From Herbidospora cretacea (lineage in GTDB: Bacteria > Actinomycetota > Actinomycetes > Streptosporangiales > Streptosporangiaceae), in contig NZ_BBXG01000029.1 of assembly GCF_001570605.1 (NCBI RefSeq), positions 28,860-92,859 on the forward strand: a stretch of DNA of 64,000 bases, given 5' to 3'. Shown here piece after piece: positions 3 to 34,861 of this stretch (within the stretch, counting starts at the first letter, position 1; each line of letters starts with the position of its first letter). Below the pieces are notes generated by a model that saw only the letters and a program-made list of their open reading frames with translations, was not told the DNA's origin and searched no databases. A program made the translations under genes and the position numbers.

Positions 3-263
3 CGGGCCTGGTCCCTGGTGGCCGCCGGAGTCGGGCTGGTCGGGGTGGTGGCCGGGGGGCTCGCGCTGGCCCGGGCCCGGCGGAGGGGGACCGTCGTCGC
101 CCTGGGGGCGGGCCTGGCCGGGGCGGTCGTCGGGGGGCTGGTGGTGGCCGCCGCGGAAGGCGGGCCCGGCACCGGCTACGGCATCGTCGGCGGCTACCTG
201 GCGGTGGTCGTGGGGCTGGTCGCGATGGCTCTCGGCGGCCTGGCCAGGGTCCGCACCCGTTAG
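3..263 (+). CDS. C-terminal part of a small membrane protein (5' end outside window)
   Basis: The reading frame is open to the window edge and ends at a TAG at 261-263, so the start probably lies upstream; a GTG at 18 is the first possible start inside. The visible 86 codons encode alternating Gly/Ala/Val/Leu-rich hydrophobic segments, about three membrane spans, separated by a short basic loop (ARARRRG) and ending in a basic tail. No functional motif is recognisable. Its stop codon overlaps the cysN stop on the opposite strand, so the two genes converge. Confidence 0.45.
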   Translation, partial: RAWSLVAAGVGLVGVVAGGLALARARRRGTVVALGAGLAGAVVGGLVVAAAEGGPGTGYGIVGGYLAVVVGLVAMALGGLARVRTR

Positions 264-1417
264 GCGACCGAGATCATCCCGGCCGAGCGGGTCGCGCCGT
301 CGGCGGGGTCGATCAGCAGGCAGGCGCCCGTGGTCCGGCTGTCGCCGTAGTCGTCGACGGCCAGGTCGGCGGCGGTGCGGACGACCACGTCGCCGATGTC
401 GTTGATGCCGAGCGAGTCTCCCGGCCCGATCGACGAGACGACCGCCTGGACCGTCCGGGTGGTGTGCTTCACCAGGATCTTCTCGCCGACGCGCAGGTCC
501 TTCTCGTGCAGGTGGCAGACGGTGGCGTGGAGTTCGCGGGTCGCCGGGGGCGCGGTGGCCGCCGGGGCGATCAGGCAGCCCCGGGAGACGTCGAGGTCGT
601 CGGCCAGGCGGACCGCGATCGACTGGGGCGCCCAGGCCGTCGCGACGGGGTCGCCGAGCACGTCGATGCCGGTCACCGTGGTCGTGTGGCCGCCGGGCTG
701 GACGGTGACCCGCTCGCCGACGCGCAGGATGCCGCCGGTGAGCTGGCCGGCGTAGGCGCGGCGGCCCCGGGTCTTGATGACGTACTGGACCGGAAGGCGG
801 GCGGGGAGCGCGGTGAGGTCCTCGGAGACCTCGACCGTCTCCAGGAACTCCATGACGGTCGGGCCGGTGTGCCAGTCCATGTGGGCCGAGGGCACGACCA
901 CGTTGTCGCCGGTCAGCGCGGAGATCGGGATGGCGGTGACCTCGCCGGGGTAGTCGAGGTCACCGGCGATCCGGGCGAAGACCTCCTCCGACCAGCCGAC
1001 CAGGTCCATCTTGTTGACGGCCAGCACCAGGTGGGGCACCCGCAGCAGCCCGGCGACGTCGGCGTGCCGCCGGGTCTGGTCGGTCACGCCGTGGCGGGCG
1101 TCCACCACCAGGACGACCAGCGAGGCCGTCGACGCGCCGGTCACCATGTTGCGGGTGTACTGCACGTGGCCCGGGGTGTCGGCCAGGATGAAGCGGCGGC
1201 GCGGGGTGGCGAAGTAGCGGTAGGCGACGTCGATGGTGATGCCCTGTTCCCGTTCGGCCCGCAGGCCGTCGGTCAGCAGGGCCAGGTCGCTGGGCGAGGC
1301 GATCTTCTCCAGTTGGTCGGACATGACCGACTTGGAGTCGTGCAGGAGACGTCCGACCAGAGTGGACTTGCCGTCGTCGACGGAGCCGGCGGTGGCCAGC
1401 CGGAGCAGCGTGGACAT
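260..1417 (-). CDS. cysN: Sulfate adenylyltransferase GTPase subunit CysN
   Basis: CysN is the GTP-hydrolysing regulatory subunit that, with CysD, makes adenosine 5'-phosphosulfate (APS) from ATP and sulfate. The 385-residue protein has the EF-Tu-like G1 motif GSVDDGKS (11-18), the G3 DTPGH motif, the G4 NKMD motif and two downstream beta-barrel domains. There is no fused APS kinase at the C-terminus, and no cysC is seen in the window, so the final step to PAPS must use an APS kinase elsewhere. The ATG overlaps the cysD stop by one base (TGATG). It is the last gene of the minus-strand operon that begins with the encapsulin, so it is probably a cluster-dedicated copy supplying the sulfotransferase. 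Confidence 0.93.
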   Translation of the reverse strand: MSTLLRLATAGSVDDGKSTLVGRLLHDSKSVMSDQLEKIASPSDLALLTDGLRAEREQGITIDVAYRYFATPRRRFILADTPGHVQYTRNMVTGASTASLVVLVVDARHGVTDQTRRHADVAGLLRVPHLVLAVNKMDLVGWSEEVFARIAGDLDYPGEVTAIPISALTGDNVVVPSAHMDWHTGPTVMEFLETVEVSEDLTALPARLPVQYVIKTRGRRAYAGQLTGGILRVGERVTVQPGGHTTTVTGIDVLGDPVATAWAPQSIAVRLADDLDVSRGCLIAPAATAPPATRELHATVCHLHEKDLRVGEKILVKHTTRTVQAVVSSIGPGDSLGINDIGDVVVRTAADLAVDDYGDSRTTGACLLIDPADGATRSAGMISVA

Positions 1418-2316
1418 CAGAAATACCCTTCTCGTTTGCGGTCCTCCATGGCGGCCTCGGCCAGCCGGTCGTCGGCCCGGGTCGCGCCGCGCTCGGTGAT
1501 CCGCGACGCCGCGATCTCCGCGATCACCTCCAGCGGGGTGCGGGCGGCCGACTCGACCGCGCCGGTGCAGGACATGTCGCCGACCGTCCGGTAGCGGACC
1601 GTCCGGCGGACCAGCCGTTCGTCGTGGCCGCCCCACGAACCGGGGCAGAGCCACATGCCGCGCCGGTCGAACACGTCGCGCTCGTGGGCGTAGTAGATCG
1701 GCGGCAAGGCGATGTCCTCGGCCGCGATGTACTGCCAGACGTCGAGTTCCGTCCAGTTGGACAGCGGGAAGACGCGCACGTGCTCGCCGGGCGTGTGGCG
1801 GCCGTTGTAGAGGTTCCACAGCTCGGGGCGCTGGCGGCGGGGGTCCCAGCCGCCGAACTCGTCGCGCAGCGAGAACACCCGCTCCTTGGCGCGGGCCTTC
1901 TCCTCGTCGCGCCGGCCGCCGCCGAAGACGGCGTCGTGGCCGCCCGACTCGATGGCGTCGAGCAGCGGCGTGGTCTGGAGCCCGTTCCGTTCCGGCACGT
2001 CCGGCAGCGCGCCCCGGTCGATGTAGTCCTGCACCGAGGCGACGTTCAGCCGCAGGCCCTCGGTGACCCGGTCGCGGAAGGCGATGACCTCGGGGAAGTT
2101 GTGGCCGGTGTCGACGTGCAGGAGGGGGAACGGCAGCGGCGCGGGGGTGAAGGCCTTCAGCGCCAGGTGCAGCATGACGATGGAGTCCTTGCCGCCCGAG
2201 AAGAGCAGCACGGGGCGTTCGAACTCGCCGGCGGTCTCGCGGATGATGTGGACGGCCTCGGCCTCCAGCGTCCGCAGGTGGGTGGTGGCGGCCATCTCCA
2301 GTGTCGGGGTCGGCAT
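1417..2316 (-). CDS. cysD: Sulfate adenylyltransferase catalytic subunit CysD
   Basis: CysD is the catalytic PP-loop subunit of ATP sulfurylase, partner of CysN. At 299 residues it is close to the family's usual 300. The pyrophosphate-binding SGGKDS motif lies at 40-45, followed by the family signatures RRDEEKARAKERVFS and PLSNWTELDVW. The start ATG at 2316 overlaps the stop of the LysZ-LysK gene (TGATG), and its own stop overlaps cysN, so the three are translationally coupled. The placement in a sulfotransferase operon, rather than beside cysH or cysI genes, points to sulfate activation for a secondary metabolite. Confidence 0.95.
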   Translation of the reverse strand: MPTPTLEMAATTHLRTLEAEAVHIIRETAGEFERPVLLFSGGKDSIVMLHLALKAFTPAPLPFPLLHVDTGHNFPEVIAFRDRVTEGLRLNVASVQDYIDRGALPDVPERNGLQTTPLLDAIESGGHDAVFGGGRRDEEKARAKERVFSLRDEFGGWDPRRQRPELWNLYNGRHTPGEHVRVFPLSNWTELDVWQYIAAEDIALPPIYYAHERDVFDRRGMWLCPGSWGGHDERLVRRTVRYRTVGDMSCTGAVESAARTPLEVIAEIAASRITERGATRADDRLAEAAMEDRKREGYF

Positions 2317-4199
2317 CAGGCGGCCCTCCTCATCGTCTGGGTCCCGGCGGCGATCCATTCGGCGACCGCCCGCGACAGGACCGCGCGGGCCCGCCGGTAC
2401 TCGCCCGCCTCCAGGTGCTCGTGGGGGGTGTGGTCGAGCTTGGCGTCGCCGGGGCCGTAGGCCACCATCGGCACCCCCTGCCAGGTCGTGGCCAGGGTGT
2501 TCATGTCGCTGGACCCCTTCTTGGCGAGGAACCGGTTGACCACGCCCTCGGCCCGGAAGGCCCGCGAGAAGGCCTTGACCAGCGGGCTGGTCCGGGCGGT
2601 CAGGTGACCGGGGGTGGCCCGGAGCACCTCGACCTCGACGGGATGGGCGACCTCCCGCAGGTGGCGGACGAGGTCGTCGAGCGACATCGTCGAGGGGACG
2701 CGGACGTCCACGACCGCCTCCCCGCGCTGCACGTCGCCGCCGTTGACGGCGTGGATCCCCAGCACGGCCAGCAGGGCGTCGGGGCCCTCCTCGGCCAGGC
2801 TCGCCCGCAGCCGGGCGAGCACGTCGACCATCTGGTCGGCGGCCGTGGTGACGCCCTGACCGGCGGTGTGCCCGACGGGGTCGGCGACGCCGATCCGGAC
2901 CTTCAGCAGGCCGTAGTAGCCGATGGTGAGCGCGCCCGCGCCCGACGGCTCCCCGATGATGACGGCGTCGGCCCGGTAGTGGTCGCGGACGAAGAACGCG
3001 CCCGCCGAGGTGATCTCCTCCTCGACCGCGCCGACCACCCTGACCTGGGTGTCCGGCGGGACGTCGAGGTCGTGCAGGGTCTCCAGGTAGGCGACCAGGC
3101 TGCCCTTGGCGTCGACGCAGCCACGCCCCGAGAGGGTGCCCCCGTCCCACCGGACCGGCCAGCGGTGGGGGACGGTGTCGAGGTGGCCGAGCATGAGGAG
3201 GCTGCGGCGGCCCGACCCCTTCCAGGCCACGAGGTTGCCGGCCTCGTCGACCTCGGCGTCGATGCCGCGTTCGTGGCACCATCCGGCCAGGTAGTCGGCC
3301 AGCTCGCGTTCGTCCCGCGACACCGAGGAGATCTCCACGGCGCGGGTGAGCAGGGTCAGGTCGTCGGCGGGCGGGTCGGCCCGCCAGAACCGGGTCCCGG
3401 CCTCCAGCGAGTGGGGCCCGGTGATGGCGACGTCGGCGGTCCCGTCGAGGGCGATCTCGGCCGCGCGGACCTTCTGCCGCATGCGGCCCCGGGCGAAGCG
3501 CAGGCCCTCGCCCCGGGCGACGTCGGGGATCCCCGACGTGTCGGCGGCGGGGTCGGCCAGCAGGCCCGGCGTGCCGGTGACCAGCCGCAGGTGGTCGGCG
3601 CCGAGCGCGTTGGCCAGCTCGGCGGCCAGCACGTCGGCGTCGACGTTCAGCGGCGGGCCTCCGTCCGCGGCGGCGGCCGGAGGGGCCACGCAGACGACGT
3701 CGAACGCGTCGAGCAGCTGGGCCAGGCACCCGGTCGCGACCTCGGACACGGTCCCGGCCCGGTGGTCCCTGACGATCACCGACCGGCCTCCCTCGACCGC
3801 TCGCAGCGGCGGGTTGGGCCGGGCCGTCACCAGCGAACCGGCGTGGGCGGTCGAGGTGAAGCAGGTCAGCCCGCGTGAGGTCAGCGCCTCGCGGACGCGG
3901 GGCAGGGTGACCCGCTCGTAGGCGGCCACGATGTGGTCCATCTCCTCGGGCGGGCAGTAGCGCGCCGTGGCGCCGTTCTTCAGGTCGAGGCTGCGGACCG
4001 GGCGTCCGATCGCCTCGTAGTGGGCCGCGATGCCGGCCGCGCCGCCCGCCACCAGGAGGATCTTCGCGCCGCGGCCGCGCAGGCGGGCCACTTCGTCGAA
4101 GACCGTCTCATGGGCGAGGCTCGCGCTGCCGATCTTGACAACGTAGAGGGCCGCCGTATGGGTGGTGGCGACCTCGCCGAGCACAGACACGAAATTCAC
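2316..4199 (-). CDS. LysZ-LysK fusion: AmCP-bound aminoacyl kinase plus releasing M20 peptidase
   Basis: One uninterrupted frame of 627 residues joins two enzymes that are usually separate. Residues 1-275 resemble LysZ/ArgB amino acid kinases: catalytic Lys in YVVKIG (about 22), a degenerate glycine loop VAGGAAG (50-56), PPLNVDAD (182-189) and the RMRQKVRAAE lysine (about 243). Residues 280-627 are an M20 metallopeptidase like LysK: GHLDTVP (His339, Asp341), Asp363, VEEE (392-395), GEPSG (416-420) and the C-terminal TPHEHLEAGEY (His593). In LysW systems LysZ phosphorylates the side carboxylate of the carrier-bound residue, and LysK cuts the finished amino acid off LysW. The GTG at 4199 overlaps the SDR stop (GTGA); a second GTG at 4190 has better spacing to AGAGGAG. 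No stop or frameshift separates the halves. Confidence 0.88.
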   Translation of the reverse strand: MNFVSVLGEVATTHTAALYVVKIGSASLAHETVFDEVARLRGRGAKILLVAGGAAGIAAHYEAIGRPVRSLDLKNGATARYCPPEEMDHIVAAYERVTLPRVREALTSRGLTCFTSTAHAGSLVTARPNPPLRAVEGGRSVIVRDHRAGTVSEVATGCLAQLLDAFDVVCVAPPAAAADGGPPLNVDADVLAAELANALGADHLRLVTGTPGLLADPAADTSGIPDVARGEGLRFARGRMRQKVRAAEIALDGTADVAITGPHSLEAGTRFWRADPPADDLTLLTRAVEISSVSRDERELADYLAGWCHERGIDAEVDEAGNLVAWKGSGRRSLLMLGHLDTVPHRWPVRWDGGTLSGRGCVDAKGSLVAYLETLHDLDVPPDTQVRVVGAVEEEITSAGAFFVRDHYRADAVIIGEPSGAGALTIGYYGLLKVRIGVADPVGHTAGQGVTTAADQMVDVLARLRASLAEEGPDALLAVLGIHAVNGGDVQRGEAVVDVRVPSTMSLDDLVRHLREVAHPVEVEVLRATPGHLTARTSPLVKAFSRAFRAEGVVNRFLAKKGSSDMNTLATTWQGVPMVAYGPGDAKLDHTPHEHLEAGEYRRARAVLSRAVAEWIAAGTQTMRRAA

Positions 4200-4963
4200 A
4201 CTCCTCTGGTGTTGCCGCCGTCGGCGACGAAGACCGTCCCGGTGACGTAGGAGGCCTGGTCGCTGACGAGGAAGGCGGCCAGGGCGCCGAAGTCGTCGAC
4301 GTCCCCGATCCGGCCCAGCGGGATCCGCCGGGCGACCTGGGCCAGCTCGTCCTCGACGGCGTCGCCGAACTGCTCGTCCAGGATCGGGGTCCGATGGAAG
4401 CCGGGGGCCAGCACGTTCACCGTCACCCCGCTCGCTCCCAGCGCGCCGACCAGGCCCTTCATGTAGCCGAGCAGGCCCAGCCGGGCCACCGACGACAGGC
4501 CGCTCTCGGGGTGGGGCTGCTTGACCGACTCGGAGGCGATCATCAGCACCCTGCCCCAGCCGCCCTTCTTGAGGTGGGGCAGCGCGGCCAGGGTCAGCGC
4601 GATGTGCGGGATCAGGTTGGCGTCGAGGGCGGCGCGGTAGTCGGCCACGCCGAACGCGTCGACCGGGCCGAACGGCACGCCGCCCGAGTTGGTCACGATG
4701 ATGTCGATGCCGCCCAGGGTGGCGGCGGTGTCGCGGACCCAGGCGGCGGCGGCGTTCTCGTCGCACAGGTCCACCGGGACGCTCAGCACGTCGCCGTCGC
4801 CCATCGCGCTCACCTCGACGTGGGCGCGGGCCAGCTTGCCGGGGTCGCGTCCGCAGATGGCGACGCTGGCCCCCTCGGCGGCCAGGGCCTTGGCGACGCC
4901 CAGGCCGAGGCCGCTGCTGGAGCAGGCCACCATGGCGACGCGCCCTTTGAGCCGCAGATCCAT
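4196..4963 (-). CDS. Atypical short-chain dehydrogenase/reductase of the AmCP operon
   Basis: This 255-residue SDR has the NAD(P)-binding Rossmann loop SSSGLGLG (15-22) and NSGG (92-95). It keeps the catalytic-position Ser144 (IASES), but the expected YxxxK is SxxxR (Ser157, Arg161). SDRs with this change form a known subgroup whose chemistry is poorly defined. Position between the sulfotransferase and LysZ-LysK makes it the best candidate to reduce the ketone created by the transketolase on the LysW-bound intermediate. The start ATG at 4963 follows GGGGAAAG. It could also be a non-catalytic partner or a dehydrogenase using another proton donor. Confidence 0.85.
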   Translation of the reverse strand: MDLRLKGRVAMVACSSSGLGLGVAKALAAEGASVAICGRDPGKLARAHVEVSAMGDGDVLSVPVDLCDENAAAAWVRDTAATLGGIDIIVTNSGGVPFGPVDAFGVADYRAALDANLIPHIALTLAALPHLKKGGWGRVLMIASESVKQPHPESGLSSVARLGLLGYMKGLVGALGASGVTVNVLAPGFHRTPILDEQFGDAVEDELAQVARRIPLGRIGDVDDFGALAAFLVSDQASYVTGTVFVADGGNTRGV

Positions 4964-4973: not shown

Positions 4974-5888
4974 TCAGGTCAGAATCGGATAGCCGTACCG
5001 GCCGAGCAGCGGGAGCGCGGGGCCGGTGGCGGCGGCGCGGGCGTGGGCCGGCAGGCCCGTGCGCCAGCGCTCGTCGGCGCGGATGCGCGCCGGACCGGCC
5101 GACAGCCGGTCGGGGTTGCCGGTGACCGTGTGGTTCACGCTCAGCACGACGTTGCCGTCCGCGTCGGCGGGCGGCTCGTCGTCGAGACCGGCGAAGGAGA
5201 GCACCCGGGCGAGCGTCCCGCGCGGGTCGCGGCACAGGTCCTCGTGGCGGACCCGCAGGTAGCGGTCGGGCGCGGCGTGGCCGGACAGTTCGGAGGCCAG
5301 GTTGAAGCCGGTCCAGAAGCCGCTGCTGCGCGCGGGGCTCATCGGGTCGATGTAGTCCTTGGCCTTCGCGTAGGAGAAGGCGGTCGCGCGCGGGTCGCGG
5401 ACCATGTGCAGCACCTTCACGTCGAGGTCGGCGCGGCCCAGCAGGGCCGCCGCCTCGGCCGGGAACTTCGAGCCGTCGACGATGAGGCGCTCGCCGCCGT
5501 GCGCGGCGAGGGTCCGGTAGATCGCGGCGGTACGGCCGACCGCCTGCGCCACCCCCGGAGCCGTGGCGGTCCGGCCGGTCGACTCGGCGATCCGGTCGCG
5601 CGTGTGGCGGGTGCGGAGCAGCGCCCGCTGCTGGAGCGTCATCAGCCGCGCCTCGCCCAGCCGATCACCACCGGTGGAGGTGATCACCTTCGACCACAGG
5701 TCGCAGGCGGTGACGTCGGCGCCGCAGCCGCAGGTGGAGTTGGTGCCGGCCTTGAGGATGCCGTTCTGCCACAGGTAGTGCAGCTCGCCGACGTGCAGCA
5801 CGCCGGGCAGCTCGCCTAGGACGTTGCCGAGCATGGTGCTGCCGCTGCGCAGCCAGCCGGTGATGTAGAGGACGCGCGGCTCACCCAT
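4974..5888 (-). CDS. PAPS-dependent sulfotransferase
   Basis: This 304-residue protein has the 5'-phosphosulfate-binding loop TGWLRSGST (10-18) and the 3'-phosphate-binding segment VLHMVRDPRATAFS (about 159-172, with the usual Arg and Ser). It should transfer sulfate from PAPS to a hydroxyl. A small cysteine cluster (CGCG at 53-56 and Cys62) is unusual and could bind metal or form disulfides. The gene overlaps the encapsulin stop by 8 bases, and its operon carries cysD and cysN, which supply activated sulfate. By analogy with vazabitide and azinomycin pathways, where sulfate elimination drives aziridine formation, the sulfate may be a leaving group; that is inference. It is a prime cargo candidate for the shell. 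Confidence 0.9.
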   Translation of the reverse strand: MGEPRVLYITGWLRSGSTMLGNVLGELPGVLHVGELHYLWQNGILKAGTNSTCGCGADVTACDLWSKVITSTGGDRLGEARLMTLQQRALLRTRHTRDRIAESTGRTATAPGVAQAVGRTAAIYRTLAAHGGERLIVDGSKFPAEAAALLGRADLDVKVLHMVRDPRATAFSYAKAKDYIDPMSPARSSGFWTGFNLASELSGHAAPDRYLRVRHEDLCRDPRGTLARVLSFAGLDDEPPADADGNVVLSVNHTVTGNPDRLSAGPARIRADERWRTGLPAHARAAATGPALPLLGRYGYPILT

Positions 5889-6705
5889 GCCACTTCACCG
5901 CCATCAGGTGCTGCGGCAGGTGCACCGCCAGCCCGATCCGGGAGGTGGCCCTGACCGCGCCGGGAACCAGCTCGATCGAGGCGACGCCCGGCATGAGCAG
6001 CGTGCAGGCGGCCCGGAAGTCGCCCATGAGCAGGGTGTCCTTCGGCATCATGCGGGTCCGCGAGACGGTGATGCCGGAGTTCTGGAACCGGGCCAGCAGG
6101 TCGTCGCGGACCATCTTCCAGTACGTCTCGGGATGCGCCACCACGCCGTCGCAGGAGCCGCCGGTCTCCTCGATCTCCCCGGCGGCCCGGGTGACGGTGG
6201 TGGCCAGGTCGTCGTGGCTCTCCGCCGAGCGGCTGCCCGGCAGACCCAGCAGGCCGGTGATGGCCCCGTCGGCGGTGCCGTGCAGCAGGGACTCGTTCTC
6301 GACGACGGAGAGACGTACCAGAACGCGGTAGTCCACATAGGCGGCGAGCAGCGCGGGATCGGCGGCGACGCCGTCGGGGAGCGGGACCTCGACGGAGAGG
6401 TCGGTCAGCGGCGCTTTCATCAGCCGGGGCGCGAAAGCGGCCTCCGGGGTGGCGTCATAAGCGGTTCCGGCGCTCTCCAGCCGGCCTTTCGGCGGTTCGT
6501 GGACGTAGGCGACGGAATCGTCGGCGACGTCGGCCGTCTTCAGCAGGTGCCGGACGGTGTAGCGCGGCCGGGCCGCGAACAGCGGGAACGCGGCCGGAAG
6601 GTGCAGGTCGAACGGGACCGCGCGGGCCCCGGCGGCCACCTCGGCGGCGAACCGCTCCCCGGGCGACCCCAGAGCCGGGAGTTCTTGCAGGGCTGTCGCT
6701 CGCAT
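5881..6705 (-). CDS. HK97-fold shell protein, family 3 (natural-product) encapsulin-like
   Basis: The 274-residue protein matches encapsulin-type HK97 shell proteins by architecture. Hallmarks are the spine-helix start ENESLLHGTADGAITGLLGLPG region (136-157, compare EDEVIFRGCEKSGVKGLL of Thermotoga encapsulin), the A-domain HPETYWKMVRDDLL helix (191-204), and the closing block SRTRMMPKDTLLMGDF followed by ALP-type beta strands to the C-terminal LMAVKWHG. Length fits the 260-300 residue shell proteins. No phage genes (portal, protease, terminase) are nearby, arguing against a prophage capsid. It is first in an operon with sulfotransferase, SDR and LysZ-LysK and faces lysW, the context described for family 3 encapsulins. 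The ATG at 6705 has an AGGAGGG ribosome site. Expected role: a self-assembling compartment around one or more pathway enzymes. No cargo-loading peptide could be identified by eye. Confidence 0.85.
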   Translation of the reverse strand: MRATALQELPALGSPGERFAAEVAAGARAVPFDLHLPAAFPLFAARPRYTVRHLLKTADVADDSVAYVHEPPKGRLESAGTAYDATPEAAFAPRLMKAPLTDLSVEVPLPDGVAADPALLAAYVDYRVLVRLSVVENESLLHGTADGAITGLLGLPGSRSAESHDDLATTVTRAAGEIEETGGSCDGVVAHPETYWKMVRDDLLARFQNSGITVSRTRMMPKDTLLMGDFRAACTLLMPGVASIELVPGAVRATSRIGLAVHLPQHLMAVKWHG

Positions 6706-6930
6706 GAGCCCTCCTAATGGGATATACGACTCCAGCCGAGCTTAATAATTCACCGAATACATTTCTTCCGTCCGGCGAGTAGGAGCGCTTATGCTCTGAG
6801 GACGACGTGTTTATATGGCCCCCGATAAGCGCGGGAATTCACTTCGATCGGCAACCCTTATTGGCGATTCACCGCCGATTCTGGTTACGGTTGAAATGCC
6901 GAAATTCCCCCGACGACAGAGGGACGAGCC
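6706..6930. promoter_or_regulatory. Divergent promoter region between encapsulin and lysW operons
   Basis: This 225-bp gap is much more AT-rich than the flanking genes and separates two operons transcribed away from each other, so it must carry both promoters. A weak sigma70-like pair for the lysW side could be TTGGCG (6861-6866) with a TTACGG/TACGGT box near 6885-6891, but spacing is long and I do not trust it. No clear inverted repeat was seen, and the TTACC-N17-GGTAA operator found at 13937 and 15481 is absent. Confidence 0.6.
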
Positions 6931-7113
6931 ATGCAGAACGTTGTGAACGCCCCCGAGTGTCCCGAGTGCGCGGCACAGGTCTCCATCGACGCCGACGCCC
7001 GGGTGAGCGAGATCGTCGAATGCCTCGACTGCCGCAGTGAACTGGAGATCGCCTCCGTCACGCCGCCGTCCCTGACGATCGCCCCCGAGGTCGAGGAGGA
7101 CTGGGGAGAGTGA
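6931..7113 (+). CDS. lysW: LysW-type amino-group carrier protein (AmCP)
   Basis: This 60-residue acidic protein has two zinc-binding pairs, CPEC (Cys10, Cys13) and CLDC (Cys31, Cys34), and the diagnostic C-terminus EDWGE (56-60). In LysW systems the gamma-carboxyl of the final Glu forms an amide with the alpha-amino group of a substrate amino acid. This protects the amine and presents an acidic surface to the pathway enzymes. The ATG at 6931 has GAGGGACG upstream. Adjacent lysX and lysY homologues confirm the role. The clustering with transketolase and sulfotransferase rather than lysine or arginine genes indicates secondary metabolism. Confidence 0.95.
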   Translation: MQNVVNAPECPECAAQVSIDADARVSEIVECLDCRSELEIASVTPPSLTIAPEVEEDWGE

Positions 7114-7961
7114 TGAACTCCGACACCCGCCTCGCCGTGCTCGCGTCACGGGTGCGGTTCGAGGAGAAGCAGATCATGGCCGCGCTCGACCGGCGCGGCG
7201 TCTCGTTCGTCCACCTCGATCCCCGGTCGCTCGTCGTCAGCGACGACACGCGCCAGGACCTGACGGTGCTCAACCGCGAGATCGGGCACTACCGGGCCCT
7301 CTACGCCGCCAGTGCGCTGGAGTCGGCGGGGGCGGCGGTCCTCAACACCGCCGCCGCCACCCACGTCAGCGGCGACAAGTGGCTGACGACCTCGGCTCTC
7401 ATGGCCAAGGGCCTGCCGACCCCCCGCACGGCCCTGGCCATGACGCCGGAGGCGGCCCACGACGCCCTCGACCAGATCGGCTACCCGGCCGTGGTGAAAC
7501 CGCTGGTCGGCTCGTGGGGACGCCTGGTCACCGCGATCCCCGACCGGGCCACCGCCGTGGGGATCCTCGAACACGTCGCGGCGCTGCCCTCGCCCCAGCA
7601 GCACATCGTCTACGTGCAGGAACTCGTCGAGAAGGCCGACCGGGACATCCGGGTGCTGGTCGTCGGCGGGGAGGCGCTGGGCGCGACCTACCGGCGCGGC
7701 GACGAGTGGCGCACCAACGTCGCCCGCGGCGCCGTGTCCGTGAAGTGCGACCTGACCAACGTCCACGCGAAGCTCGCCGTGGCCGCCGCCGAGGCGGTGG
7801 GCGCCGAGATCGCTGGGGTCGACCTGCTGGAGGACGCCGACGGCCACCTGACGGTGCTGGAGGTCAACGACCGGGTCGAGTTCCGGGGCTTCCAGGACGC
7901 CCACGAGATCGACGTCGCCGACGTCATCGCCTCCTACGCGATCGCGAGGGCAGAGGCATGA
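7113..7961 (+). CDS. lysX: LysX-type ATP-grasp ligase loading LysW
   Basis: LysX enzymes ligate an amino acid (glutamate or alpha-aminoadipate) to the C-terminal Glu of LysW with ATP. The 282-residue protein shows ATP-grasp features: GDKWLT (87-92), the ATP-binding VVKPLVGSWGRL (127-138) and the metal-binding block near LEVNDRVEFRG at the C-terminus. The ATG at 7113 gives a TGATG overlap with lysW and has GGGGAGAG upstream; a GTG at 7110 is an alternative. In described AmCP metabolite pathways the substrate is glutamate, which I infer here from the pathway layout. Confidence 0.93.
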   Translation: MNSDTRLAVLASRVRFEEKQIMAALDRRGVSFVHLDPRSLVVSDDTRQDLTVLNREIGHYRALYAASALESAGAAVLNTAAATHVSGDKWLTTSALMAKGLPTPRTALAMTPEAAHDALDQIGYPAVVKPLVGSWGRLVTAIPDRATAVGILEHVAALPSPQQHIVYVQELVEKADRDIRVLVVGGEALGATYRRGDEWRTNVARGAVSVKCDLTNVHAKLAVAAAEAVGAEIAGVDLLEDADGHLTVLEVNDRVEFRGFQDAHEIDVADVIASYAIARAEA

Positions 7962-9000: not shown

Positions 9001-9843
9001 ATGACCACCACCATCGGTGCCCCCCAGGACCTGGGCACGGCGGCCGGGACCGCCGCCCGGATCAGGGAGCACATCGTCAACCTGTGCGCCAGCCCCGAGG
9101 GCGGCCACCTGGGCGGCTCGATGTCGCTCGCGGAGATCCTCGCGACCCTCTACACGCGGGTGCTGCGGGTCGATCCGTCCCGGCCCGGGGCCGTCGAAAG
9201 GGACATCCTGCTGCTCAGCAAGGGGCACGGCGGCCTGGCGCTCTACGCGGCGCTGACCGAGGCCGGTTTCTTCCCGGCGACCCGGCTCAACGAGTACGCG
9301 CAGCCGGGCAGCGAGTTCATGGCCCACCCCCACGCCGAGATCCCCGGCGTCGAGATGCCCTCCGGGTCGCTCGGCCACGGGCTGGCGCTGGCGGTCGGGT
9401 TCGGGCTCGGGTTCCGGCTCGACGGCGCGGACCGGCGGTGCTTCGTCGTCATGGGTGACGGCGAGCTCCAGGAGGGCTCCGTCTGGGAGGCCGCCTCGGT
9501 GGCCGCCGCCCAGCGCCTCGACAGCGTCGTCGCGATCGTCGACCGCAACCGGCTCCAGATCACCGGCGGGACCGAGACGATCGACGCGCTCGAACCGCTG
9601 GCCGACCGGTGGTCGGCCTTCGGCTGGTCGGTACGCGAGGTCGACGGCCACTCGGTGGAGGAACTCGAGGCCGCGCTGACCGAGCCGCCGGTCCCCGGCC
9701 GCCCGACCGTCGTGATCGCCCGGACCGTGAAGGGCAAGGGCATCCCGTTCGTCGAGGACCAGCCGCGCAGCCACTACGCCAAGCTCGGCGAACGGCAGCA
9801 CGCCAAGGCCCTCGCCGCGCTCCGGAGAGGAGCCGTGTCATGA
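9001..9843 (+). CDS. Transketolase N-terminal (TPP-binding) subunit
   Basis: This 280-residue protein is the pyrophosphate-binding half of a split transketolase. It has the GDGELQEGSVWEAA motif with a downstream Asn in IVDRN for thiamine diphosphate-Mg binding, plus the LSKGHGGLALYA histidine segment. The start has AGGAGTCTCG upstream. With the downstream subunit it should transfer a ketol unit from a ketose phosphate to the LysW-bound semialdehyde, extending glutamate by two carbons as in DADH formation for vazabitide and azinomycin. Two-gene transketolases are typical of such clusters. Confidence 0.93.
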   Translation: MTTTIGAPQDLGTAAGTAARIREHIVNLCASPEGGHLGGSMSLAEILATLYTRVLRVDPSRPGAVERDILLLSKGHGGLALYAALTEAGFFPATRLNEYAQPGSEFMAHPHAEIPGVEMPSGSLGHGLALAVGFGLGFRLDGADRRCFVVMGDGELQEGSVWEAASVAAAQRLDSVVAIVDRNRLQITGGTETIDALEPLADRWSAFGWSVREVDGHSVEELEAALTEPPVPGRPTVVIARTVKGKGIPFVEDQPRSHYAKLGERQHAKALAALRRGAVS

Positions 9844-10766
9844 GCCCCTCCTCCCGTGAGGTCTACCGGGACGCCGTCCTGGACCTGCTCCCCCGCGACG
9901 ACCGGCTGGTCTGCCTCGACTCCGACACCGGCCTGTTCGACGCCGCGAAGTTCCCCGAGCGCTACGTCAACCTCGGCATCGCCGAGCACACGCTGATGGG
10001 CGCGGCGGCCGGGCTGGCCAAGTCGGGCCGGATCCCGCTGGTCAACACGATGGCGGCGTTCGCGTCGTCGCGCGCCAACGAGGCCGTGAAGATCGACATC
10101 GCCCTCAACAACCTGCCGGTGCGGATCGCCGGGACCCACTCGGGCGTGTCCGCCGGGCACCTCGGGCCGACCCACCACGCGCTGGAGGACCTGGCCGTGA
10201 TGCGGGCGCTGCCCAACATGACCGTGGTCGTGCCGGCCGACGGCCCGCAGACCGGGACCCTGTTCCGGCAGTCGCTGGGCGTCAACGGCCCCGTCTACCT
10301 GCGGCTCGGCCGCAACGCGACCCCGGAGATCCCCGACGCGCCGCCGGTCAGGCTCGGCCTGGCGCAGGTGCTCAGGGATGGCGCCGACGTGACGCTGGCG
10401 GCCTGCGGGCCCTACCCGGTGATCGCCGCCCTCGACGCCGCCGACCTCTTGGAGCAGGAGGGCGTCCGCGCGTCGGTGCTCAACGTCCACACCGTCAAGC
10501 CCCTGGACGTCGCCACGATCGCCGCCCACGCCCGGCGCTCCGGCGTGGTGGTCACCGTCGAGGAACACTGGCGCAACGCCGGGTTCGGGTCGGCCGTGGC
10601 CGAGTCGCTGGCGGAGATCACCCCCAGCCTGGTGCTCCGGGTTGCGATGCCGGACGCGTTCGTCCCCGTCGCCGGCGGGCAGCGGTATCTCGCCGAGCGC
10701 GGCGGCGTCACCGCCGCCTCGGTCGCGGCCAGGGCACGAGCGGCTCTTGGGAGGGATCCGCGATGA
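9840..10766 (+). CDS. Transketolase C-terminal (pyrimidine-binding) subunit
   Basis: This 308-residue partner subunit overlaps the N-terminal subunit by ATGA. It holds the pyrimidine-binding domain with the conserved glutamate in NLGIAEHTLMGAAAGLA, then the transketolase C-terminal domain with VTVEEHWRNAGFGSAV. The active site forms between the two subunits. Because the genes are translationally coupled, a fixed 1:1 assembly is expected. Confidence 0.93.
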   Translation: MSPSSREVYRDAVLDLLPRDDRLVCLDSDTGLFDAAKFPERYVNLGIAEHTLMGAAAGLAKSGRIPLVNTMAAFASSRANEAVKIDIALNNLPVRIAGTHSGVSAGHLGPTHHALEDLAVMRALPNMTVVVPADGPQTGTLFRQSLGVNGPVYLRLGRNATPEIPDAPPVRLGLAQVLRDGADVTLAACGPYPVIAALDAADLLEQEGVRASVLNVHTVKPLDVATIAAHARRSGVVVTVEEHWRNAGFGSAVAESLAEITPSLVLRVAMPDAFVPVAGGQRYLAERGGVTAASVAARARAALGRDPR

Positions 10767-12226
10767 CCGTCATGGACGACCTGCGCGGACACCCGCGCGG
10801 CAAGCTCGCCCTGGTCTGCTACCAGGACGGCACGGCCGTCGAACTGACCTACGGCGACCTGCTCGACCGAGTCGACCGCATGGCCACCCTGCTGCACCGC
10901 CTCGGTGTGGCCAAGGGCCAGGTCGTGACGCTCCAGCTGCCCAACTCGTGGCAGCTCGCGGCGCTGATCCTGGCGTGCTACCGGATCGGGGCGATCCCCG
11001 GCCCGGTCGTGCCGATCATGCGGCGGCGTGAGGTCCAGTTCATGCTGAACCTGACCGAGAGCCCCGTCTACATCGCGCGCCGCGAGTTCCGCGGCTTCTC
11101 GTACAAGGACATGATCGCCTCCGTGGACGCGCCGAAGCTGCGTCACACCCTGTTCGCCGAGGAGCTGTCCCTGCCGGAGAGCGACCTCGACGGCGTCACC
11201 GAGTCGGGCCCCGGCGACCCCGCCCAGGTGGCCTTCACCTCCGGGACGACCGGGGAGCCGAAGGGCGTCGTGCACAGCCACGACACCCTCCACGCGATGA
11301 ACCGGGCCCAGGCCGACGTGCTCCACCTGACCGCCGACGTCGTCACGGCCATGGGGTCGCCGACGACGCACCAGGCCGGGTTCACCTGGAACCTGATCAT
11401 GCCGCTGCTGCTCGGCGGCACCGCGGTCCACGTCGAGTCGTGGGACGCCGACCGGATGCTCGACATCCTCCAGGAGCGCCGGGTGACCTTCTTCATGGGC
11501 GCCCCGACCTTCCTGTCCGACCTCATCGAGACCCAGTCCGCCCGGCCGCGCGATCTGAGCGCCCTGGCGACGTTCGCGACCGGCAGCGCGCCCATCGCGC
11601 CCTACCTGGTCGAACGCGCCCGCGACGTGCTCGGCTGCCGCCTCTACGCCCTGTGGGGGATGACCGAGAACGGCTGCGTCACCATCACCCGTCCCGAGGA
11701 CCCGCCGATGCGGGCCGCCGAGAGCGACGGCACGGTCGTGCCCGGCATGGAGGTGCGGATCGCCGAGGGCGGCCGGCTCCAGGTCAGGGGCGCGTCCCAG
11801 TGCCTGGGCTACTTCCGGCGCGAGCACGTCTACCAGGCGTGCCTCACCGACGATGGCTGGTTCGACACCGGCGACCTGGCCCGCGACGACGGGCACGGCG
11901 GCATCCGGATCACCGGCCGCGTGAAGGACGTCATCATGCGCGGCGCGGAGAACATCCCCGTCGTCGAGGTCGAGAACGCGCTGCTCCGGCACGACGCGGT
12001 CCGCGACGTCGCGGTGGTCGGCTACCCCGATCCCCGGCTCGGCGAGCGGGCCTGCGCGGTGATGGTGGCCTCCCCCGCTCCGAGCCTCGACGACCTGCGG
12101 GTGCACCTGGCCGGGCTCGGGATGGCCAAGCAGTACTGGCCGGAACGGCTGGAGATCGTCGGTTCCCTGCCGCGCACGCCGTCCGGGAAGATCCAGAAGT
12201 TCGCGCTGCGGGAGGGGCTGCGATGA
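10763..12226 (+). CDS. Acyl-CoA/acyl-AMP ligase (cyclohexanecarboxylate-CoA ligase-like)
   Basis: This 487-residue ANL-superfamily ligase has the P-loop FTSGTTGEPKG, the adenylate motif YALWGMTENG, the FDTGDLARDD hinge region and the catalytic lysine in TPSGKIQKF. It overlaps the transketolase subunit (ATGA) and the following acyl-CoA dehydrogenase (ATGA), so the two probably act in sequence on one acyl thioester. The closest families I recognise are AliA-type carboxylate-CoA ligases, which also include the BomJ/NatL2-like ligases of benzoxazole clusters. It could therefore serve either the AmCP-derived acid or 3-hydroxyanthranilate. Confidence 0.85.
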   Translation: MTVMDDLRGHPRGKLALVCYQDGTAVELTYGDLLDRVDRMATLLHRLGVAKGQVVTLQLPNSWQLAALILACYRIGAIPGPVVPIMRRREVQFMLNLTESPVYIARREFRGFSYKDMIASVDAPKLRHTLFAEELSLPESDLDGVTESGPGDPAQVAFTSGTTGEPKGVVHSHDTLHAMNRAQADVLHLTADVVTAMGSPTTHQAGFTWNLIMPLLLGGTAVHVESWDADRMLDILQERRVTFFMGAPTFLSDLIETQSARPRDLSALATFATGSAPIAPYLVERARDVLGCRLYALWGMTENGCVTITRPEDPPMRAAESDGTVVPGMEVRIAEGGRLQVRGASQCLGYFRREHVYQACLTDDGWFDTGDLARDDGHGGIRITGRVKDVIMRGAENIPVVEVENALLRHDAVRDVAVVGYPDPRLGERACAVMVASPAPSLDDLRVHLAGLGMAKQYWPERLEIVGSLPRTPSGKIQKFALREGLR

Positions 12227-13362
12227 ACACCGACTTCACACCCCAGCAGGAGACGCTGGCCAAACGGGTCCGCGAGTTCGCCGCCGACCGCGTCGCGCCC
12301 TTCCGGGCCGAGAGCGACCGGCGGGCCGAATACCGTCCGGGCCTGCTGGCCGACATGGCGGCCGAGGGGCTGTTCTCCTTACGCGTCCCCGAGGAGTTCG
12401 GCGGCCAGGGCCTCGACGCGGTCAGCGCCGGCATCGTGCTGGAGGAGCTAGCGGCGGCCGACCTGTCGGTCTGCTACCCGGTGCTCAACGCGGCGCTGGT
12501 CGGCGGCGTGCTGGCCGCCAACGGGACCCCGGCCCAGCTGGCCCGGTGGCTGCCGGGCATCGCCGCCGGGACGTCCGTCGTCGCCCTCGGCCTGACCGAG
12601 GCCGGCCACGGGACCGACGCGGCGGCCATCGAGACCGCCGGGGAGCACTTCCCCGACGGCTGGCGGCTGACCGGCGAGAAGACCTCCATCATGGCCACCG
12701 CCTACGCCACCCACGCCCTGCTGTTCGCCCGCACGGGCGGCCCGGGGGCGCGCGGGATCAGCGCCTTCTACACCCCCCTCCACGGCGTCCGCCGGGAGCT
12801 CCACTCCGACCTGGGCTGCCGGGCGGGCGGGCGCGGCCGGTTCACCCTCGACGGCCTGCACGTCGCCAACGACGACCTCGTCGGACGGCCGGGCGCGGGA
12901 TTCGTCGAGGTCATGCGCGGCTTCGGGGTGTCCCGGGCGCTGATCTCCCTGATGGCCATCGCCGTCGGCCAGGCCGCGCTGGACGAGGCGATGGCCTACG
13001 CCGGACGGCGGGAGGCCTTCGGCCGGCCGATCGGGAAGTTCCAGTCGGTCGCGTTCCCCCTGGTCGAACACGCCACGATGCTGCACGCCGCGCGCCTGGT
13101 CTCCTACGAGGCCCTGGCCGCCGCCGACGCGGGGCGCGACCCGCGCCTGCCCGCGAACATGGCGAAGTGGTGGGCCCCCAAGGCCGCCATGGAGGCGGTC
13201 CACCAGTCGCTCCTCACGATGGGCCACGTCGGCTGGTCGGAGGACGGCCCGGTGGCCCAGCGCCTCCGCGACGTCATCGGCCTGCAACTGGCCGACGGCA
13301 CCGCCGCCGCGACCAAACTGGTCGTCGCCCGCCATCTGCTGGGACGGGAGGCGGCACCGTGA
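12223..13362 (+). CDS. Acyl-CoA dehydrogenase family flavoprotein
   Basis: This 379-residue protein has the three-domain acyl-CoA dehydrogenase layout. It carries LTEAGHGTDA in the FAD-binding middle region, the R-EAFGRPIGKFQSV helix segment, and a C-terminal LQLADGTAAATK block where most family members have YEGT. The catalytic-base position is thus Asp (about 358) instead of Glu. It should desaturate an acyl thioester made by the ligase encoded just upstream (ATGA overlap). It ends the plus-strand AmCP operon; the next gene is on the opposite strand. Confidence 0.88.
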   Translation: MNTDFTPQQETLAKRVREFAADRVAPFRAESDRRAEYRPGLLADMAAEGLFSLRVPEEFGGQGLDAVSAGIVLEELAAADLSVCYPVLNAALVGGVLAANGTPAQLARWLPGIAAGTSVVALGLTEAGHGTDAAAIETAGEHFPDGWRLTGEKTSIMATAYATHALLFARTGGPGARGISAFYTPLHGVRRELHSDLGCRAGGRGRFTLDGLHVANDDLVGRPGAGFVEVMRGFGVSRALISLMAIAVGQAALDEAMAYAGRREAFGRPIGKFQSVAFPLVEHATMLHAARLVSYEALAAADAGRDPRLPANMAKWWAPKAAMEAVHQSLLTMGHVGWSEDGPVAQRLRDVIGLQLADGTAAATKLVVARHLLGREAAP

Positions 13363-13988: not shown

Positions 13989-15389
13989 ATGTCCCAGGAG
14001 AACCGCAAGCCGGCCCTGGCACTGCTGTGCATGGCCCAGTTCGTGCTGGTCCTGGACTTCGCGATCGTCAACGTCGCATTGCCCTCCATCCAGCGGGACC
14101 TCGGCTTCACCGACAGCGCCCTGCAGTGGGTCGTCGGCGCGTACGCGCTGTTCTTCGGCGGGTTCCTGCTGGTCGGCGGGCGGCTCGGCGACATCGTGGG
14201 ACGCAAGAGGATGTTCGTCGGCGGCCTGGCCGTCTTCACCGCCGCGTCCCTGGCGGGCGGGGTCGCGACCGAGCCCATCGTGCTCATCGTGGCCCGCGCG
14301 CTCCAGGGCCTCTCGGCGGCGATGGTGTCGCCGGCCGTGCTGGCGCTGATCGCGGGCGGCTACCCCGAAGGCAAGGAACGCGCGAAGGCCATGGGCATCT
14401 TCGGCGCGGTCGCCTCGGCCGGGTTCACCGGCGGGGTCCTCTTCGGCGGCGTGCTGACCGAGCTGTTCGGCTGGCGGGCGGTCATGTTCGTGAACGTCCC
14501 CGTCGGCGTCGCGCTGGTGCTCCGGGCGGTCAGGCGCCTGGACGCCGACCACGTCGCCCACCGCACCCAGCGGATCGACGTCCCCGGCGCCATCCTGGTC
14601 ACGGCCGGCATGTGCGCGCTGACCTACGCCCTCACCACCGCCACCGACCACGGCTGGTCGGCCCCCGGCGTCGTCTACCCGCTGATCGGGGCGGCGGTGC
14701 TGCTGGCCGCGTTCTTCGTGCTCCAGACCCGCTCGGCCAACCCGCTGGTGCCGCTGTCGATCTTCAAGATCCGCGGCGTGGTCGCCGGTGACTCCATCGC
14801 GTTCCTGTCGGGCGGCGTCATGTCGATCTCGACCTACTTCCTGACCCTCTACATGCAGCACGGCCTCGGCTACTCCGCCATCCAGACGGGCCTGGCGTTC
14901 TTCCCGCAGGCCGTCGTGACCGTGCTGGCCGCGAAGTTCGTGGCCGACCTGACCGGCCGCGTCGGGCCCCGGCCGGTGCTCATCGGCGGCGCGGCCTGTC
15001 TGACCGCCGGTTCGGCCTGGCTGCTCACCGTCCCCGTGAACGGGAGCTACTGGCTGCACGTGCTGCCCGGCGGCGTCCTGATCGGGCTCGGCGTGACGGT
15101 CATGATGATCTCCACCGCGGTGGCCGCCACGACCGGGGTCGACGGGCCGCGCATGGGCCTGGCCAGCGGTCTGTACAACTCGCTGCGCCAGCTCGGGGTG
15201 GGCCTGCTGCTGGCCATCGCCGTGACGGCGGCGGTGCCGACCACCGACCCGCAGAACATCGGCAGCTACCACGTCGCGTTCGGGATCAGCACGGTCCTGT
15301 CGGTGCTGATCGCGCTGATCGCGGCGGCCGTCCTGCGCCCTCGCGAGGCCGCGACGCCGGTCGCCGAGAAGGAGAGGGTCGACGCCTGA
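13989..15389 (+). CDS. MFS drug exporter (DHA2/EmrB-QacA type)
   Basis: This 466-residue membrane protein has about 14 predicted hydrophobic spans, motif A GGRLGDIVGRKRMF in the first cytoplasmic loop and an early Asp in the first helix (FVLVLDFAIVNVALP), as in proton-coupled multidrug exporters of the EmrB/QacA group. It has a strong AGAGGAGG ribosome site. Its divergent pairing with a regulator and shared operator with the biosynthetic operon suggest it exports the product and confers self-resistance. A strong terminator follows. Confidence 0.92.
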   Translation: MSQENRKPALALLCMAQFVLVLDFAIVNVALPSIQRDLGFTDSALQWVVGAYALFFGGFLLVGGRLGDIVGRKRMFVGGLAVFTAASLAGGVATEPIVLIVARALQGLSAAMVSPAVLALIAGGYPEGKERAKAMGIFGAVASAGFTGGVLFGGVLTELFGWRAVMFVNVPVGVALVLRAVRRLDADHVAHRTQRIDVPGAILVTAGMCALTYALTTATDHGWSAPGVVYPLIGAAVLLAAFFVLQTRSANPLVPLSIFKIRGVVAGDSIAFLSGGVMSISTYFLTLYMQHGLGYSAIQTGLAFFPQAVVTVLAAKFVADLTGRVGPRPVLIGGAACLTAGSAWLLTVPVNGSYWLHVLPGGVLIGLGVTVMMISTAVAATTGVDGPRMGLASGLYNSLRQLGVGLLLAIAVTAAVPTTDPQNIGSYHVAFGISTVLSVLIALIAAAVLRPREAATPVAEKERVDA

Positions 15390-15523: not shown

Positions 15524-16759
15524 ATGGCGAACACACTGATCGCCGGCGGCGGGATCGGCGGCCTGGCGGCCGCGCTCTCGATCGCCCGAGCAGGCACCAA
15601 TGATCCGCACCGCGTGACCGTGCTCGAACGCGGTGACCGGTTCGCCGAGCTCGGCGCCGGGATCCAGCTCGCGCCCAACGCGTTCCGCGCCCTCGACCTG
15701 CTGGGCGTCGGCGACCGGGTGCGCGAGCGCGCGGTCTTCATCGACGAACTGCGCCTCATGGACGGCACCACCGGCCGCCGCGTCACCGGCCTCCCCTTGA
15801 CGGGGACCTACCGGGAGCGCTTCGGCAACCCCTACGCGGTCGTCCACCGGGGCGACCTCTACCAGCCGCTCCTGGACGCCTGCCGCGCCGACGGCCGGAT
15901 CGAGCTCCTGCCGGGCCACGCGGTCACCGGCTACACGCAGACCGCGGACAAGGTCGTCGTGACGAGCCGGATCGCCGGCAAGGTGACCGCCGACGGCCGG
16001 ACCACCGGCTCAGGCACCGTGACCCGCTTCGAGGCCGACTACCTGATCGGCGCCGACGGGATCCGCTCCGCGGTCCGGGCGCAGCTGGTCGGCGACGGGC
16101 GGCCCCGGGTCTCCGGCCACACGATCCACCGCTCGGTCATCCCGATGGAGCGGGTCCCCGAGGAGCTGCGGTGGAACGTCGTCACCCTGTGGGCCGGGCC
16201 CAAGTGGCACTTCGTGCACTATCCGATCGGCGGCGGCGCGTTCCTCAACCTGGCCGCCACCGTCGACGACGGAGCCACCCGGGAGGTCGCGGGTGAGCCG
16301 GTCGCGCGGGAGGTCGTGCGGAACCGGTTTCCCGGTCTGAGCGACACGGCCAGAGCTCTGCTCGCCCTCGGCGACGAGTGGCGGACCTGGGTCCTGTGCG
16401 ACCGCGACCCCGTCTCGGCCTGGACCGACGGCCGGGTGGCCCTGCTGGGCGACGCGGCGCACCCGATGCTCCAGTACGCCGCCCAGGGCGCCTGCACCGC
16501 CCTTGAGGACGCGGTCGTGCTCGGCGACGTCTTCCCCGACCTCGACGCCTACGCCGCCCTGCGGCGGGAGCGCACCGCGGACGCGACGCGCGCCGCCCGG
16601 TGGCTGGGCGACCGGATCTACCACCCGGCCGGCGAGGCCGCCCGGGAGCGCAACGGCATGCTGGCCGCGCTGTCCGAGACGGACCTGCACGACCACGTGG
16701 CCTGGTTACACGCCTACAACCCCCGCACAGAAAGGATCCCGAGCGATGCGGTTCGATGA
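15524..16759 (+). CDS. FAD-dependent aromatic hydroxylase (salicylate/3-hydroxybenzoate hydroxylase-like)
   Basis: This 411-residue group A flavin monooxygenase has the dinucleotide fold GGGIGGLAAA near the N-terminus (8-17), the DG motif YLIGADGIRSAVR, and the GD motif GRVALLGDAAHPM. Such enzymes hydroxylate phenolic acids with NAD(P)H and O2. It is the first gene of the long operon behind operator 2. Plausible substrates are salicylate, 3-hydroxyanthranilate or the assembled benzoxazole; the sequence does not decide. Its 3' end overlaps the next gene by 14 bases. Confidence 0.9.
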   Translation: MANTLIAGGGIGGLAAALSIARAGTNDPHRVTVLERGDRFAELGAGIQLAPNAFRALDLLGVGDRVRERAVFIDELRLMDGTTGRRVTGLPLTGTYRERFGNPYAVVHRGDLYQPLLDACRADGRIELLPGHAVTGYTQTADKVVVTSRIAGKVTADGRTTGSGTVTRFEADYLIGADGIRSAVRAQLVGDGRPRVSGHTIHRSVIPMERVPEELRWNVVTLWAGPKWHFVHYPIGGGAFLNLAATVDDGATREVAGEPVAREVVRNRFPGLSDTARALLALGDEWRTWVLCDRDPVSAWTDGRVALLGDAAHPMLQYAAQGACTALEDAVVLGDVFPDLDAYAALRRERTADATRAARWLGDRIYHPAGEAARERNGMLAALSETDLHDHVAWLHAYNPRTERIPSDAVR

Positions 16760-18841: not shown

Positions 18842-18843
18842 AA

Positions 18844-18911
18844 GCGAGACGCGGACGGCCGAAGGCCGGCCGTGGCTCGCGCTGTGAACCTGCCCAATAG
18901 ACAGGACTTGA
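18844..18911 (+). repeat. Intra-operon hairpin leader, copy 1
   Basis: Begins two bases after the DAHP synthase stop. A 17-bp stem (18844-18860 with 18864-18880, GAA loop, two mismatches and one G-T pair) is followed by a conserved tail, CTGCCCAATAGACAGGA, whose ACAGGA serves as ribosome site for the next gene. The second copy at 27106-27173 shares most bases. Possible roles are attenuation, mRNA processing or stability control, or a translation-regulating leader. Confidence 0.75.
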
Positions 18912-18913
18912 TC

Positions 18914-21019: not shown

Positions 21020-21026
21020 GGACGGC

Positions 21027-27105: not shown

Positions 27106-27173
27106 GCGAGACGCGGACGGCCGGAGGCCGACCGCGTCTCGCGCCCCGAATCTGCCCGATAGACAGGAGCTGT
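27106..27173 (+). repeat. Intra-operon hairpin leader, copy 2
   Basis: Starts directly after the SDR stop. The 17-bp stem (27106-27122 with 27126-27142, GGA loop) has one mismatch. The following CTGCCCGATAGACAGGA differs by one base from copy 1 and supplies the ribosome site of the PhzD gene. Some stem differences between the copies keep pairing, which suggests the structure is selected. Confidence 0.75.
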
Positions 27174-27179
27174 TCAACC

Positions 27180-34745: not shown

Positions 34746-34861
34746 GATCTGGCCCACCCCCAAGCGGTGATTTCCCGGGACGATCACCACCTATGCCCAA
34801 CAACGGGTCAGAGTCACGCGACCTTCGCTCAGACGGGCCCGGACATGCGAGGATCACCCTC

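Follow-up and report, generated by a model that had tools for sequence, protein, structure and literature searches.

A family 3 encapsulin gene at the head of an amino-group carrier operon in Herbidospora cretacea

Gene content and border of the cluster

The window, i.e. the whole stretch of 64,000 nucleotides of Herbidospora cretacea that was analysed, contains a natural-product gene cluster that extends from about 260 to 30303 (Table 1). Its minus-strand operon has the order ENC (the gene of the encapsulin shell protein), sulfotransferase, SDR, fused LysZ-LysK, CysD and CysN, which confirms the earlier note's observation of an encapsulin-like shell gene heading an amino-group carrier operon. 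The overlap between ENC and the sulfotransferase gene makes translational coupling of the two likely. A consensus promoter scan of positions 6600-7000 found no sigma-70-type consensus in the region between ENC and the divergent lysW gene.

Table 1. Features of the encapsulin cluster and their positions in the window
Feature	Position	Strand	Basis
CysN, sulfate adenylyltransferase large subunit, 385 aa, without APS-kinase domain	260..1417	-	TIGR02034 434.6 bits, cut-off 336.1
CysD, sulfate adenylyltransferase small subunit	1417..2316	-	TIGR02039 423.1 bits, cut-off 396.6
LysZ-like kinase and LysK-like hydrolase, fused, 627 aa	2316..4199	-	profile matches
SDR-fold protein, 255 aa; Ser157/Arg161 in place of catalytic Tyr/Lys; Glu145 next to Ser144	4196..4963	-	profiles, alignment
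Sulfotransferase (Sulfotransfer_3, PF13469), 304 aa	4974..5888	-	profile/sequence match
ENC/sulfotransferase stop/start overlap, 8 bp, ATGGGTGA	5881..5888	-	sequence
Family 3 encapsulin shell protein (ENC), 274 aa	5881..6705	-	curated HMM, HK97 fold by profile and model
ENC/lysW divergent intergenic region, 225 bp	6706..6930		sequence
AGGAGG ribosome-binding site of ENC, 4 nt ahead of ATG at 6705	6710..6715	-	sequence
LysW-like amino-group carrier protein, 60 aa, C-terminus EEDWGE	6931..7113	+	profiles
LysX-like ATP-grasp ligase	7110..7961	+	profiles
LysY/ArgC-like phosphate reductase, 344 aa	7958..8992	+	TIGR01850 argC 335.4 bits, cut-off 233.6
Transketolase N-terminal half	9001..9843	+	profiles
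Transketolase C-terminal half	9840..10766	+	profiles
Acyl-activating AMP ligase	10763..12226	+	nearest NCBIfam cyclohexanecarboxylate-CoA ligase, under cut-off
Acyl-CoA dehydrogenase-like flavoenzyme	12223..13362	+	nearest cyclohexanecarboxyl-CoA dehydrogenase, under cut-off
MFS transporter	13989..15389	+	profiles
Aromatic/peptide half: FAD monooxygenase, KAS III, DAHP synthase, A-PCP, salicylate synthase, AMP ligase, amidohydrolase, isochorismatase, PhzE-like, alpha/beta hydrolase	15524..30303	+	profiles

The LysW/X/Y/Z/K set of an amino-group carrier protein (AmCP) pathway is complete in the window, as judged from PF21344 (51.4 bits, cut-off 27), PF22626 (46.9 bits, cut-off 27), TIGR01850 (Table 1) and TIGR01902 (280.7 bits, cut-off 163.1). 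Three models stay below their cut-offs, namely TIGR01206 lysW (51.9 vs 53.2), TIGR02144 LysX (267.8 vs 275.6) and the [LysW]-aminoadipate kinase model (126.6 vs 223). The kinase and the hydrolase are fused here; in another ENC clade (e.g. L108) the LysK-type gene follows an AA-kinase gene of its own. The cysD-cysN pair is present without cysC, and the only APS-kinase match of the genome is on another contig (C15).

The salicylate synthase of the aromatic half matches TIGR03494 with 440.5 bits (cut-off 325.15). Together with a second chorismate enzyme (PhzE-like) and an isochorismatase it lies beside the AmCP half, and an aromatic cap joined to an azacycle would recall the layout of azinomycin. 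A second genus (genome G533) has both the ENC/AmCP block and, except for the hydrolase, the aromatic half side by side, at about 63-81% identity and in a slightly different order. The tested window genes from beyond 30.3 kb were not found in the next 5.2 kb of that genome, and for this reason the border of the cluster was set at about 30.3 kb. An aromatic amino acid lyase gene is located just beyond the border (35226-36551, plus strand).

The shell protein, its fold and its distribution

The curated equivalog HMM NF041188 matches ENC with 330.9 bits, far over its cut-off of 180, and the match covers model positions 1-266 of 266. The earlier note had proposed this HMM search along with a comparison of a predicted structure to the encapsulin fold, and the second check gave an answer in the same direction: the HK97 fold of ENC is predicted by profile comparison and by a single-chain structure model, and the model matches assembling capsids and encapsulins across at least 200 residues. 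Curated HMM, fold and gene context therefore agree on a family 3 encapsulin within a carrier-protein natural-product cluster. ENC is a member of the published family 3, which has published AmCP members; the account of Andreas & Giessen (2021, PMC8346489) gives 132 family 3 systems in six classes, some of them with carrier proteins.

ENC is about 20% identical to the HK97 major capsid protein and about 12% to family 1 encapsulins. In contrast to these proteins, no phage assembly genes were found near ENC, and the enzymes adjacent to the shell have no known cargo tag. The position at which structural matches begin was considered as a mark of encapsulins, as the aligned range starts from model residue 10-13 in the encapsulin matches and might reflect an N-terminal helix. 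This candidate was rejected because the phage chains 8fqk_D (14), 9osb_A (12) and 9lbm_A (10) start likewise, so that the start of the helix separates nothing.

Since sequence profiles of ENC resemble those of HK97-like capsids, it may be asked if the gene is a phage-derived capsid remnant, or part of a prophage that merely sits beside a cluster. We consider this extremely improbable. The score of the equivalog HMM argues against it, as does the absence of a PHROGs match, and Pfam, NCBIfam and PHROGs scans, which covered all but a few small ORFs of the window and upstream, found no phage structural or other phage genes near ENC. In addition, ENC is found above the cut-off in 70 out of 345 genomes of the order (up to 7 candidates per genome were scored), and from genus to genus it recurs beside biosynthetic genes, without phage genes. 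The corresponding figures are 2 out of 396 genomes drawn across the phylum, 9 out of 394 in the class and 20 out of 150 in the family of genome G204, these four genome sets being partly overlapping. Within Herbidospora, the gene is present in 6 of the 7 genomes searched; ENC is 92-95% identical to five Herbidospora records and is the only family 3 encapsulin in its own genome (G000, 8.28 Mb). No relatives were found in a plasmid collection at E 1e-5.

Two further observations concern phage-like sequences. An ORF at 34793-35236 (plus strand) belongs to PF04020, a family named after a mycobacterial phage holin; it has no PHROGs match and was not counted as prophage evidence. Other genomes of the phylum contain matches to NF041188 below the threshold (L004-L014, 19-69 bits), which are perhaps ordinary HK97-like capsids.

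A different question is whether the HK97 fold of ENC closes into a shell at all, or is kept in an open lattice, a scaffold or an enzyme-like platform that joins the sulfotransferase and the SDR. An alignment of 89 sequences reaching down to 26% identity (the window, 43 of 120 listed proteins out of 247 found, and 45 of 75 locus references) has 15 invariant columns, many of them charged, including R48, R52, E70, E88, R127, R131, E136, N137, E179, R216, R218 and D229. This pattern would suit a platform, and so would the lack of a loading peptide on the two enzymes. No solved family 3 structure appears among the sequence matches of ENC, which also leaves room for such a reading, even if absence from a fold list is in itself no evidence. 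On the other hand, the ENC family can be aligned with the HK97 capsid along most of its length, and the structural match to assembling capsids and encapsulins means that the invariant charged residues may be structural. On balance we regard the open arrangement as unlikely.

Constant and exchangeable neighbours of the shell

In all, 106 focal loci were scanned, of which L068 and L078 duplicate L015 and L017, leaving 104 distinct loci; the window comes in addition. A sulfotransferase is present in the stretch analysed, up to about 10 kb on either side of ENC, in 102 of these 104 actinobacterial loci, which are phylogenetically related, so that this and the following counts do not represent independent events. 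The two loci without it (L099 and L106) have ENC starting about 840 and 350 bases from the start of the contig, respectively. No sulfotransferase was found in 20 control loci, which were arbitrary 20-kb stretches of ENC-bearing genomes and not other biosynthetic gene clusters. The sulfotransferases are of two types, the one seen in the window (83 loci) and a PF19798 type (19 loci), never both in one locus (profiles, threshold 30 bits), and the two families do not detect each other. The gene is not always adjacent to ENC: by stop-to-stop ORF bounds the two lie as much as 4.5 kb apart, and 69 of the 104 loci that have a sulfotransferase, counting the two duplicates, show a gap of 1 kb or less.

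The association was also examined from the side of the enzyme. Matches of at least 204 bits to the sulfotransferase of the window numbered 72 in the 345 genomes of the order, with up to 6 candidates scored per genome, and 69 of them are at most 6.1 kb from an ENC. The remaining three lie close to a contig end (G650, 4.2 kb off; G633, 1.4 kb; G652, 5.4 kb), and in G652 an ENC is found at the edge of another contig. Consequently, in this order the sulfotransferase subfamily is not seen apart from the shell save at contig ends. The next best match scores 174 bits, and tblastn found no ENC in the 11 inspected loci of the lower-scoring group. This related but distinct group (L132-L142) is 35-39% identical and has cysD/cysN nearby in 7 of the 11 loci. 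By sequence, the sulfotransferase of the window has its closest solved relative in 4gox (E 2.9e-9), whose chain bears the name polyketide synthase. The sulfate added by that enzyme reportedly serves as a leaving group too.

Joint conservation is to be expected for the genes of a single cluster. In a mirror-tree comparison of 67 loci, the distances of ENC track those of the sulfotransferase (0.92) and the SDR (0.89). For 29 AmCP loci the values against ENC were 0.967 for the sulfotransferase, 0.969 for the SDR and 0.974 for LysZK, as compared with 0.871 for LysW, 0.785 for LysX, 0.695 for LysY, 0.767 for TktN and 0.719 for TktC. The contrast is kept within clade A (14 loci; sulfotransferase 0.972 vs LysX 0.763), but it is gone within clade B (15 loci; TktN 0.945 and LysY 0.928 vs sulfotransferase 0.902), and we therefore do not use it as support.

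The other neighbours of the shell are exchangeable. Exactly one supply module was found in 98 of the 104 loci, i.e. a DegT aminotransferase in 45, the LysW carrier set in 34 (33 of these with transketolase) and a carboxylate reductase plus aldo/keto reductase (CAR+AKR) in 19. Six loci have no module; five of them (L099, L101, L106, L107 and L152) are cut by contig ends and L100 is a real exception. We infer that each module yields an amine-bearing alcohol or a ketose, for which the shell and the sulfotransferase would be the shared next need. Of the 104 loci, 99 have an SDR or AKR; L083 and L110 have neither, though they are away from contig ends, and L076 has a distant SDR only. Some family 3 loci (L053, L058, L062 and relatives) carry a LanM-like protein (DUF4135 and LANC) and a DegT aminotransferase, and in some of them there is a glycyl-tRNA synthetase gene.

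The SDR partner deserves a separate comment. A classical SDR oxidoreductase has a catalytic Ser-Tyr-Lys set, of which the protein of the window keeps the serine only. The same substitution is found in 80 out of 81 partners (the window and 80 loci), with Ser144 kept; the sole exception is the distant match of L076, which may not be the partner. Tyr and Lys are kept in 5 out of 5 SDRs of the control loci. The nearest solved structures (5va8, 5vps and 5idx) have the same Ser/Arg pattern in alignments, which points to a wider SDR subfamily; Glu145, present beside Ser144 in 80 of the 81 partners, is replaced by Ser in these three. Given the loss of Tyr and Lys, the partner should not be assumed, or drawn, as a ketone reductase.

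The earlier note had named the sulfotransferase as the first cargo candidate. Its association with ENC lends weight to this proposal, but adjacency is not cargo, and when the termini were compared by clade, the sulfotransferase and SDR of the window clade ended within a few residues of the conserved folds, with no terminal extension that could serve as a loading peptide. Neither of the known loading modes is visible on the two enzymes of the window. The SDRs of L065, L070, L072, L102 and relatives have a conserved C-terminal tail, roughly 20 residues long and with KDTYT close to its end, which occurs mainly in the DegT-MT-DAO clade, in a few other loci as well, and not in the window clade. This tail is a candidate cargo-loading peptide.

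Sulfation and the possible role of the shell

It is useful to compare the window with the systems described before. It shares with the family 3 systems of PMC8346489 the curated family, the biosynthetic context, the sulfotransferase, the SDR and the LysW-type AmCP. The main text of that paper contains neither the names Herbidospora and Nonomuraea nor the stem Streptosporang. Its family 3 passages place sulfotransferase/SDR pairs in "many" clusters, whereas here the sulfotransferase accompanies nearly every locus, in two families, and the SDR is non-canonical. Measured against section 9 of PMC8346489 and those passages, the near-universal two-family link, the three exclusive modules and the SDR devoid of Tyr/Lys are new. 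The Mesorhizobium members are described there with SDRs and serine-pathway enzymes and no mention of a sulfotransferase; they are a possible counter-example to the link, and none of our 104 loci comes from that group. The only experimentally studied products named in these passages are the chloromyxamides, peptides with 6-chloromethyl-5-methoxypipecolate, and the role of the encapsulin in that one cluster is stated to be unknown. Our literature searches turned up no experimental work on family 3 shells after that paper.

The azinomycin/vazabitide AmCP pathway offers a second comparison. In that route the chain is sulfated, and an aziridine forms when the amine next to the sulfate takes its place (PMC9570651). 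As far as the transketolase, the modules of the window resemble this pathway as described there, with a glutamate-derived chain, a kinase, a reductase and a C2 extension by transketolase; the sulfation and the attack of an amine on the sulfate, the last steps in common, are proposed for the window. A difference is that the published route employs an aminotransferase to make a second amine after the transketolase step (PMC9570651), whereas none was detected among the scanned cluster genes of the window, though one may be encoded elsewhere in the genome, and that the window has an encapsulin.

As the sulfotransferase is the near-constant neighbour of ENC, we propose that ENC forms a shell around the sulfotransferase step of the amino-group carrier pathway, with sulfate as the leaving group for ring closure. 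We put this reading forward tentatively and give it a chance just short of even; by analogy with azinomycin, sulfate is probably the leaving group. The sulfate-eliminating enzyme of the azinomycin/vazabitide pathway is reportedly AziU3/U2, which Kurosawa is said to have described in 2022. In the window, LysW/X/Y/ZK would carry the glutamate-derived chain, and the split transketolase would lengthen it by two carbons, a step reported for azinomycin. PAPS would come from CysD/CysN together with the APS kinase of the other contig, and the sulfotransferase would then sulfate a hydroxyl of the chain. As no aminotransferase is among the scanned cluster genes, the reacting amine would be the alpha-amine that LysK sets free, and this amine would displace the sulfate and close the ring. 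The ring is probably of the six-membered pipecolate type, as in chloromyxamide, and a 6-hydroxymethyl pipecolate would result from attack on the sulfated C6; the nearest NCBIfam models of the AMP ligase and the dehydrogenase (both below cut-off, Table 1) are a cyclohexanecarboxylate pair, in keeping with an acid that has a six-membered ring. Inside the shell the electrophilic sulfate ester, or else a strained azacycle, would stay with its enzymes and be separated from the cytoplasm. The earlier note's idea that a compartment could trap a reactive sulfated intermediate is plausible, and the comparison of loci gives it a better motivation. With respect to a genotoxic product, AlkZ-family proteins (PF06224) occur in 28 out of 28 family 3 genomes searched, and among the matches listed for these genomes none lies within 70 kb of an ENC, so that this test of self-resistance lends a genotoxic product no support.

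The reading given in section 9 of PMC8346489 is different: the SDR and then the sulfotransferase would place a sulfate on a hydroxyl that is kept in the final product, and the shell would sequester reactive aldehyde or ketone intermediates. The AmCP route is indeed expected to make an aldehyde (the LysY product) and a hydroxyketone (the transketolase product), and CAR loci would likewise pass through an aldehyde. However, a partner that has lost Tyr and Lys is not evidently a carbonyl reductase, and what the loci have in common is the sulfotransferase, not one aldehyde-forming enzyme. We therefore find this explanation rather unlikely.

Our own proposal, a shell around a sulfate-leaving-group step, can be widened to the whole family. 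We speculate that family 3 encapsulins are dedicated reactors for ring closure with sulfate as the leaving group (a biological Wenker reaction), the shell holding the sulfotransferase whatever module supplies the amino alcohol; in the SDR clades, the SDR without Tyr/Lys would be a reductase turned cyclase, with Glu145 as the base and Arg161 gripping the sulfate. To this wider picture we assign a distinctly small chance. If it is true, family 3 shells would be the first compartments to have sulfate activation at their core.

A constant sulfotransferase next to three exchangeable supplies raises a concrete question, i.e. what a virus-derived shell does for sulfation, and it makes a role for a little-studied encapsulin family testable. 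If sulfate does act as a leaving group, a compartment would be connected with the azacycle warheads found in DNA-alkylating natural products, and also with the chloromethyl group that chloromyxamide carries.
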